A stretch of 64,000 bases of DNA from Methanohalophilus euhalobius. GTDB taxonomy: Archaea; Halobacteriota; Methanosarcinia; Methanosarcinales; Methanosarcinaceae. A model generated the notes under the pieces. The model had not been told where the DNA came from, made no database searches, and saw only the letters and a program-made list of their open reading frames with translations. Both the position numbers and the translations under genes were made by a program. Shown in pieces: positions 26,858-28,936 of the stretch (its first letter is position 1; each line of letters opens with the position of its first letter). The stretch spans positions 1 through 64,000 of the forward strand of contig NZ_OBDR01000002.1 of NCBI RefSeq assembly GCF_900215215.1, in the 5' to 3' direction.

Positions 26858-27676
26858 GTGGATATGAACCAAAACGAACAATTTCAGGCCAATCTAGCAG
26901 ATGCGAGAATCTTGTTCAGGGAAGAAGATGCAGTAATAAGAATAAAAGAACTTCCCACAATGATAATCGGGGATTTGCATGGAGACCTTGAAGCCCTGAA
27001 CATGGTAATTTCAATTAAAGAAGAGTTAGAACCTGCAAATATAATATTCCTGGGAGATTATGTAGACCGGGGAAGAAATTCTGCAGAAGTCCTTTCAAGA
27101 TTATTGAAATTAAAGATTGCCTCACCGAAAAATGTCTTCCTCCTGAGAGGGAATCATGAAACAAAGCAGATGAACGAGAAAAGGGGATTCTTTGATGAGC
27201 TGAAAGATAGTGAGCTGTTCAATTTTGCTAATATCGTGTTTGAAGAAATGCCTGTAGCAGCTGTAATAAATAAAAAAATATTCTGTGTCCACGGCGGTAT
27301 CGAGGATATCAGAAAAACAACAACGATCACAAAACAAGATTCATTTAATTATCTCTGGAATGACCCCTCAGAGATACCGGGCCTGAACTTCTCCATAAGA
27401 GGAAGAAGCATACGGACCTTTGGCCCCGATATTGTGGAAGGATTCCTGCGCCTTAATGACCTCCAAATGATTATTCGTGCCCATAGTTCACTGGATACAG
27501 GATATAAATGGTGGTTTGGAAATAAATTGCTATCAATACATTCCACGCTGAATAAGCATGGGACACCCGTAAAGGGTGCTGTATGCCTTATAAAAAAGGA
27601 TCAACTGGACATATACACATATGGAAAAACGGGAGATGGTGCAAGGATTATTGACAAAACCAGGCATGATCTTTGA
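26858..27676 (+). CDS. PPP-family serine/threonine protein phosphatase
   Basis: The 272-residue protein contains the full PPP metallophosphatase signature: IGDLHGDLEAL (GDxHG), FLGDYVDRGRNS (GDxVDRG), LLRGNHETKQM (GNHE), CVHGGI and a late IRAHSSLDTGYKWWF. It should remove phosphate from Ser/Thr residues using two metal ions. A GTG at 26858 after AAAGAGAG is the first start; ATG 26864 is the alternative. It reads away from sfsA and stands alone, with an RNA gene downstream. Confidence 0.9.
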   Translation: MDMNQNEQFQANLADARILFREEDAVIRIKELPTMIIGDLHGDLEALNMVISIKEELEPANIIFLGDYVDRGRNSAEVLSRLLKLKIASPKNVFLLRGNHETKQMNEKRGFFDELKDSELFNFANIVFEEMPVAAVINKKIFCVHGGIEDIRKTTTITKQDSFNYLWNDPSEIPGLNFSIRGRSIRTFGPDIVEGFLRLNDLQMIIRAHSSLDTGYKWWFGNKLLSIHSTLNKHGTPVKGAVCLIKKDQLDIYTYGKTGDGARIIDKTRHDL

Positions 27677-27777
27677 TTGTAAAATACCCTGGCATCCGAA
27701 AAAGTCCTAATTATATTAGACAGACATCCCAAATATGCAAAAAAGGAAATGGAATTATACAAAGTATTCGCCGTTAA

Positions 27778-27788
27778 CATTTAAATAG
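27778..27788 (+). promoter_or_regulatory. TATA box for the RNA gene at 27810
   Basis: CATTTAAATAG lies 22-32 bases before the first G of a GC-rich block at 27810, the standard archaeal TATA-to-start distance. It is the best-placed promoter signal in the 286-base gap between the phosphatase and tsr3. Confidence 0.6.
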
Positions 27789-27809
27789 TAGAACAACCCT
27801 CATTTTATA

Positions 27810-27921
27810 GTGGGACAGATTAGCAAGTCTGCCCGGCCCCCGCACAGTCCGGGAGCAAATATCATACAACCACCTTTGTTGATTCTGGCCGGCACGAAAC
27901 CGGCCGGATCACAAGCTTTTT
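27810..27921 (+). ncRNA. Candidate structured RNA or leader upstream of tsr3
   Basis: About 110 bases are far richer in G+C than the flanks. Three helices can be drawn: GGG-CAGA with TCTG-CCC (27812-27834), CCCGG with CCGGG (27832-27853, competing with the first for CCC), and a long 3' hairpin. That hairpin pairs GAT and GGCCGG with CCGGCC and ATC around a CACGAAA loop and is followed by CTTTTTT (27915-27921), like an intrinsic terminator. A TATA box sits at the right distance upstream. It could be an independent small RNA or an attenuator-type leader of tsr3, whose ATG is 42 bases further. I do not recognise a known RNA family. Confidence 0.6.
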
Positions 27922-27962
27922 TGAACAAACAATATGTATTATTAATGAATAATATAGCCTGA

Positions 27963-28469
27963 ATGAAAGACTTCAGACTCCATATTTATCATGCCCGGCA
28001 ATGTGATCCTAAAAAATGCACAGGTAAAAGACTCAAAAAATTTGATCTGGTCCGACTGCATGAAAAAATACATTCACTCCCAAAGGGATCCATCTTACTG
28101 GACCCACTGGCAGAAAAAGCCCTTTCGCCTGCAGACAGTGAGATTTCAAACATTATTGTCCTTGATTGTTCCTGGAATACCGTGGAAGAAATTTTTCCTA
28201 AACTGTTGCGCCGCAAGTTACAGCATCGTGCATTGCCCTATCTGCTAGCTTCAAATCCGGTGAATTTTGGCAAACCTTTTAAATTGAATTCTGTAGAAGC
28301 TTTTGCCGCAGCTTTGTATATTCTGGGAAATAAAGAGCAGGCAGAAAAAATCCTGTCAAAGTTTAGATGGGGACATACTTTTCTGGAACTTAACAGACAA
28401 CCTCTGGAAGATTATAGTAAAGCGAACAATAGTGAGGACATTATACAAATCCAAAATGAATACATCTGA
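27963..28469 (+). CDS. tsr3: 16S/18S rRNA aminocarboxypropyltransferase Tsr3
   Basis: Tsr3 (DUF367) transfers an aminocarboxypropyl group from S-adenosylmethionine to a hypermodified pseudouridine of small-subunit rRNA. The 168-residue protein has the RLI-like N-terminus [23 protein letters not shown], then the core [15 protein letters not shown], then [34 protein letters not shown]. The last segment is highly typical. The gene follows the structured RNA above and overlaps nothing; the next gene starts 14 bases on. Confidence 0.93.
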
Positions 28470-28483
28470 GTAGGAGGTAAAAT

Positions 28484-28936
28484 ATGGAGATACAAATTGG
28501 AGTTATCGGGGCCGGGTCCTGCGACAGTGAAATCGACAGCCTTGCAGAAGAGGTGGGAAGAGAGATTGCAAAAAGGGGAGCATACCTTCTTTGTGGTGGC
28601 ATGGAAGGTGTTATGGAAGCTGCCTGCAGGGGATGTAAAAAAGAAGGTGGCAAAACTGTTGGAATACTTCCCGGGTCTTCTGCAAAACAAGCAAACCCTT
28701 ATGTTGACATCGCCATAGTAACGGACATGGGACACGCAAGAAATGCAATCATTGCGGCTTCATGCGATGCGGCTATAGCAGTTGGTGGGGAATATGGTAC
28801 ATTATCAGAGATTGCATTGTCTATTAAAAACGGCAAACCAGCCATCAGACTTTGTTCAAAGTGGGATATTGAAGGAACAATCCCTGCCCATTCGGCAAAA
28901 GAAGCGGTAGATATGGTATTCAAAAAAATAAATTGA
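28484..28936 (+). CDS. SLOG/LOG-like nucleotide-binding protein (TIGR00725)
   Basis: A 150-residue Rossmann-like protein: IGVIGAGSC, CGGMEGVMEAACRGCKKEGGKTVGILPG and IAVGGEYGTLSEIALSIKNGKP. These are the features of the TIGR00725 branch of the lysine-decarboxylase-like/LOG superfamily (GGGxGTxxE variant GGEYGTLSE). LOG proteins cleave nucleotide 5'-monophosphates; the exact substrate here is unknown. A strong AGGAGG site precedes the ATG, and the gene is likely co-transcribed with tsr3. Confidence 0.8.
   Translation: MEIQIGVIGAGSCDSEIDSLAEEVGREIAKRGAYLLCGGMEGVMEAACRGCKKEGGKTVGILPGSSAKQANPYVDIAIVTDMGHARNAIIAASCDAAIAVGGEYGTLSEIALSIKNGKPAIRLCSKWDIEGTIPAHSAKEAVDMVFKKIN

Follow-up and report, generated by a model that had tools for sequence, protein, structure and literature searches.

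A candidate structured small RNA gene with its own conserved promoter lies upstream of tsr3 in Methanohalophilus and Methanococcoides

The window analysed here is a stretch of 64,000 nucleotides from Methanohalophilus euhalobius (NCBI RefSeq assembly GCF_900215215.1, contig NZ_OBDR01000002.1, positions 1–64,000). Within it, an intergenic gap separates a metallophosphatase-like gene (26858–27676; PF00149) from tsr3 (27963–28469, + strand), the product of which resembles 16S rRNA aminocarboxypropyltransferase (PF04034, 6e-49; PF04068; NF002621, 239 bits). After tsr3 comes a SLOG/LOG-like gene (28484–28936; PF18306, TIGR00725), and a similar ORF is found at that place in genome G009 (L007). The gap contains a block at 27811–27922 with a GC content of 0.55, compared with 0.25–0.40 in the DNA around it. 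An initial annotation had picked out this GC-rich block together with a TATA box, a strong GC-rich hairpin and six consecutive T; the block is real, and all three elements are present as claimed.

The features of the gap all lie on the + strand. The promoter (27770–27787), recognised from sequence and conservation, consists of an upstream element, GCCGTTAACA, and the TATA box, TTTAAATA (27780–27787); the upstream stretch as a whole reads GCCGTTAACATTTAAATA, with the TATA box inside it, and about 22 bases then lead to the first hairpin. With a start near 27810, as placed from the TATA box, and an end placed from the T run, the predicted product is a small RNA of about 110 nt (27811–27922), and the match of RNA model R1, described below, spans 27811–27933. 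In the predicted fold the 5′ hairpin SL1 (27811–27835), to which the CCC at 27832–27834 belongs as had been stated, is followed by SL2 (27836–27856), the hairpin beside the linker. The unpaired linker, AAAUAUCAUACAACCACC (27857–27874), ends in the core ACCACC (27869–27874) and is the proposed pairing region. It is followed by the strong 3′ hairpin SL3 (27875–27915) and by TTTTTT at 27917–27922, the proposed transcription end, which leaves a gap of 40 nt before the start of tsr3 at 27963.

The full 166 bases of the query were found at 90–95% DNA similarity in five of the seven other Methanohalophilus genomes, and G005 and G002 carry a diverged copy at the same position. RNA models were built from the eight Methanohalophilus sequences (R1) and from six Methanococcoides sequences (R2). 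R1 recovered the RNA upstream of tsr3 in all eight Methanohalophilus genomes, which is expected because those sequences built the model. R2 found it in 10 of 11 Methanococcoides genomes, always upstream of tsr3; this count includes its own six sequences, and the finds beyond them (G062, G078, G081 and G084) had E values of 2.2e-5 to 3.7e-4. The eleventh genome, G087, which is 76% complete, gave neither a tsr3 match nor the RNA. At E ≤ 0.1, R1 and R2 found the RNA in none of the 81 other genomes of the family, and tsr3 is present in 94 of 100 family genomes. The absence from other genera is not firm, since both models are weak across genera. When R2 was applied to five Methanohalophilus loci (15,138 bases) the five best scores were the RNA, on the right strand in every case; its whole-genome search found no Methanohalophilus RNA, and at E ≤ 2.5 it missed two of the eight Methanohalophilus loci.

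A third model, R3, was built from 10 of the 18 loci, with both genera represented, and it inherits the structure of R2 and so is not independent of it. Among 40 family genomes R3 found the RNA in 8/8 genomes of the two genera, and sequences outside its alignment (G003, G006, G009, G022, G048 and G056) scored 50–80 bits. Nothing was found with R3 at E ≤ 0.1 in 31 genomes of families other than Methanosarcinaceae, and none of the three models found a convincing member in Methanolobus. Nor was a copy retained beside sfsA in Methanolobus or other genera found in 20 such loci by R2 and a motif scan (R1 was applied to six of them only), apart from that of G009. Matches to query bases 69–97 in five Methanohalophilus genomes were rejected as paralogs, as they fall inside one long ORF, taken by eye to be glycyl-tRNA synthetase.

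Weak R3 matches in other genera have a look-alike layout, UAC-N-ACCACC and then a hairpin, and were counted as unexplained. Those in G010 and G057 (genus g4, to which an ANME-3 record belongs; L420, L423) lie just after an ftsZ-like ORF and comprise a hairpin, a near-identical linker in AAATATCATACCACCAC, a long hairpin and a T-rich tail, the same layout, at chance-level scores (E 0.4–1.9). The only other R3 match below E 0.1 (G016, E 0.04) belongs to a repeated element of that genome, which is intergenic, was seen in six copies (L428–L432, L435) and reads ATACAACCACCTCC followed by a long hairpin, with 12–13 bases in common with the linker. In the Methanolobus genome G024 (L413 / L438), AATACCACCACTTTGAGATAGGA with an adjoining perfect hairpin lies near a lipoprotein-like ORF, at a chance-level score.

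Conservation is distributed unevenly along the locus. Between the main Methanohalophilus clade (four genomes) and G005 or G002, identity is 91% in the linker and 79% in the promoter, compared with 60% in the 5′ hairpins, 63% in SL3 and 50–60% in the flanks. The corresponding values for two Methanococcoides sub-clades are 100% for the linker, 94% for the promoter, 79–83% for the hairpins and 62–73% for the flanks, and between the two genera they are 85% for the promoter, 71% for the linker and 48–60% for the remainder. Inside both genera the linker, AUACNACCACC, surpasses every other block in conservation, and the block identities together indicate that constraint is strongest on the promoter and the linker. 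In four Methanococcoides genomes (G084, G062, G078 and G081; L114–L117) the linker carries repeated copies of its ACC unit (ACYACCACCACC) and also includes an ATG.

Twelve more genomes of the two genera have the 18-base promoter element at the RNA with 0–2 mismatches, and another two have it with three. A regulon with this element in common was considered and rejected, because at ≤3 mismatches the element is not clearly commoner than its reversed control; for the same reason it looks particular to the RNA gene. A sequence that resembles it, GGTGTTAACATTTATATA, stands before a nadA-like ORF in G019 (L317, reverse strand, ~445–520).

The RNA of the window has a predicted folding energy of −40.3 kcal/mol (z −2.87), with 1 of 200 shuffles as good, and the folds of seven relatives have z values of −4.0 to −6.5, so that eight sequences, the window's RNA included, were compared with controls. 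The minimum-energy folds of 18 sequences all display one or more 5′ hairpins, then the exposed linker, then the 3′ hairpin. The mean unpaired probability of the ACCACC core is 0.71–1.0 in 18/18 sequences; in the window it is 0.91 for the core and 0.88 for the whole linker. Covariation was assessed on a MAFFT alignment of 10 Methanococcoides sequences, using a two-helix structure written by hand from the consensus fold of six. In this structure 91.2% of cells are paired, and compensatory changes affect 8 of its 26 pairs, with four such pairs in either helix. The number of compensatory cells is 22 compared with 8.3 in shuffles, none of 500 shuffles reaching 22, and slid versions of the structure gave at most two pairs and eight cells. 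One of the five covariation measures, the number of further pair types, is opposite in direction (14 vs 18.4). For Methanohalophilus, RNAalifold found compensatory change at only one of 25 pairs, and its covariation term was unfavourable, a weakness due in part to misalignment of SL3 of G005 and G002. A MAFFT alignment of the 3′ part (14 sequences) misplaces SL3 and was left out. R2 places its single 5′ hairpin on SL2 of Methanohalophilus, which makes SL1 look like an addition in that genus.

The initial annotation had described two competing hairpins and had proposed an attenuator of tsr3, that is, that the RNA is the 5′ leader of tsr3 and terminates transcription according to which hairpin forms. 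The position and orientation of the RNA, the 40 nt between T run and ATG in the window, and the constancy of tsr3 as neighbour in 18 genomes all speak for such a leader. The two 5′ hairpins, however, co-form in the minimum-energy folds of all eight Methanohalophilus sequences, so their competition is not a conserved feature; a mutually exclusive terminator/antiterminator pair is not conserved in these eight folds, and there is no such pair in Methanococcoides, which lacks the second hairpin. Moreover, the distance from the end of the RNA match to the tsr3 match rises to about 276–279 nt in three Methanococcoides genomes (G062, G081 and G084) and 385 nt in a fourth (G078), where a TATA-like stretch was seen by eye before tsr3; by eye, such stretches precede tsr3 in Methanococcoides and also in genera without the RNA. 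Finally, the most conserved block is the linker, which would be useless to an attenuator. Because relatives have as much as ~390 nt between the RNA and tsr3, and because the 5′ hairpins form together, the attenuator reading fails, and we regard it as improbable. A link to ribosome assembly through Tsr3, which had also been raised, is supported by nothing except the neighbourhood, given that tsr3 occurs without an RNA match (R1/R2, E ≤ 0.1) in 76 genomes of the family that belong to neither genus.

A short mRNA for a small protein might also be read from the locus, as an ATG opens a frame of 34–100 codons across the linker in six Methanococcoides genomes. The length of that frame varies within Methanococcoides, however, and pN is near or above pS in many of 15 pairs. 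None of the eight Methanohalophilus sequences has an ATG frame of at least 12 codons, and close relatives differ in length by a single base in the A run that precedes the linker; a coding function is accordingly very improbable. The least probable reading of all is a C/D or H/ACA guide RNA, the finding named beforehand as one that would overturn the annotation. It draws on the rRNA-modifying neighbour, tsr3, and on an ACA near the 3′ end in Methanohalophilus. It was rejected on the grounds that a C box (RUGAUGR) is missing from 18/18 sequences, that no ACA occurs at a common position and that the loci of four relatives matched nothing in Rfam at E ≤ 1; in addition SL3, inspected by eye, folds without a large internal loop. 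The remark that the RNA matches no known family also stands, as a search of Rfam 15 returned nothing at gathering score except tRNA elsewhere in the window, and near the block, at E ≤ 10, only two weak matches (E 1.2 and 6.3) that are far below gathering.

Taken together, these comparisons show a predicted structured RNA gene of about 110 nt, with its own conserved promoter, upstream of tsr3 in both genera. The other proposal of the initial annotation, an independent small RNA with its own TATA box and terminator, agrees well with the conservation of promoter, stems and linker across the two genera, and an independent small RNA gene is, in our judgement, highly probable. As judged from its sequence and relatives, the RNA is a conserved small RNA gene absent from Rfam.

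The closest likeness in published work is to sRNA162 of Methanosarcina mazei, for which the accessible text of PMC3510493 describes SL1, SL2, a 39-nt single-stranded linker and SL3, and a linker that masks a ribosome-binding site. Compared by description with that account, the tsr3-side RNA is likewise an intergenic archaeal RNA in which SL1–SL2, a single-stranded linker and SL3 follow one another (PMC3510493). It also has stem-loops of conserved structure flanking the unpaired linker, a promoter of its own in two genera and, in the window, a terminator-like 3′ end with a T run. There are differences as well: in the text available of PMC3510493, homologs of sRNA162 are reported only in M. acetivorans and M. 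barkeri, and its linker is called its most variable part, whereas the linker of the tsr3-side RNA is the most conserved; the tsr3-side RNA is also shorter, at about 110 nt, one sRNA162 construct in the same text reaching nucleotide 191.

By analogy, the tsr3-side RNA would be transcribed as a free small RNA ending at the T run, SL3 would protect it, and, less surely, it may act in trans via the exposed linker AUACNACCACC. The linker could then pair with GGUGGU-containing ribosome-binding sites of target mRNAs and so block translation, as the sRNA162 linker does. Consistent with this, the reverse complement of the linker, AGGTGGTTGTATGAT, resembles a Shine–Dalgarno sequence followed by ATG. With ≤2 mismatches it has 72 matches in the eight Methanohalophilus genomes (8 being the gene itself and 64 other), compared with 20 for the reversed sequence, a comparison to be read with the caveat that a start-like pattern (AGGTG..ATG) beats the reversed control for any start-resembling sequence. 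In the window's genome, five of the ten non-self matches fall at the in-register ATG of a family-assigned or conserved ORF, namely apgM, modA, a ramA-like gene, metX and a small ORF without a family, and the linker duplexes predicted at these five starts have energies of −16.9 to −24.0 kcal/mol. More generally, across the window and ten further stretches of its genome (236 genes by a simple ORF rule), the mean linker duplex energy is −6.77 at the starts vs −5.53 inside genes, with 1 of 40 shuffled linkers doing as well (200 genes), a preference that partly reflects the resemblance of the linker to the complement of a generic start.

The Methanococcoides linker, in contrast, displays no start preference (−5.57 vs −5.53, with 15 of 40 shuffles as good; 171 genes in ten stretches of G009), and matches to its reverse complement are fewer than those to the control (30 non-self vs 64 in six genomes). 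Inspection of 23 of these 30 places, which are mostly inside ORFs, gave no convincing target. Five Methanohalophilus genomes retain the ramA-like site, G002 and 6/6 Methanococcoides genomes have lost it, and a search of six Methanococcoides genomes gave no match to the best-pairing small ORF, so that neither qualifies as a target common to both genera. The ramA-like gene of G004 (M. profundi; L382, L398) appears as two overlapping pieces, one with an internal stop, which points to a frameshift or an assembly fault. With no start preference or enrichment in Methanococcoides and the ramA-like site lost, the ribosome-binding-site step is supported in one genus only.

These results bear on an alternative in which the RNA is still an independent small RNA and its linker binds a protein, or pairs away from starts, instead of serving as an anti-ribosome-binding-site seed. 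The linker is 100% identical between the two Methanococcoides sub-clades in the genus that shows no start preference, one Methanococcoides branch has an expansion of the ACC unit that would be surprising in a fixed antisense seed, and no target is common to both genera. The start preference in Methanohalophilus argues against this alternative, which we consider possible and rather unlikely. Far more doubtful is a new small RNA family that would mimic the anti-Shine–Dalgarno tail of 16S rRNA, its ACCACC linker (ACCACCACC in one branch) binding a broad range of Shine–Dalgarno sequences and damping translation initiation genome-wide from a gene encoded beside, and perhaps co-regulated with, that of a small-subunit maturation enzyme. 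Whether the linker acts against ribosome-binding sites is, in our estimate, evenly balanced. As a whole, an independent trans-acting small RNA with a linker that masks ribosome-binding sites is the best explanation, to which we give modest preference.

Other small RNAs of methanogens share single traits with the tsr3-side RNA. The M. mazei RNAs sRNA41 and sRNA154, described for Methanosarcina in the accessible text of PMC5867862, are likewise intergenic and are said there to mask ribosome-binding sites, a likeness by description. In Methanolobus psychrophilus, nine cold-induced conserved small RNAs have a common ‘cold box’ motif upstream of their promoters, according to the part of PMC5378194 available; the tsr3-side RNA, again compared by description only, similarly has an element before its TATA box that is strongly conserved. 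The openly accessible literature on Methanohalophilus small RNA and Methanococcoides burtonii non-coding RNA contained no publication on the tsr3-side RNA, and that on M. mazei small RNAs, sRNA41 and the cold box did not describe it.

To our knowledge, a function has been established for few archaeal small RNAs, and in the accounts available those with named targets come from Methanosarcina and Haloferax. The shape of the tsr3-side RNA and the short exposed stretch kept by evolution suggest that it may control other genes by pairing with their messages. Kept in two genera beside the same neighbour, and with compensatory changes in its stems and a conserved seed-like linker, the family is an evident candidate for a search for targets in methylotrophic methanogens, and, if the linker acts on ribosome-binding sites, the mode of action of sRNA162 would extend beyond Methanosarcina.
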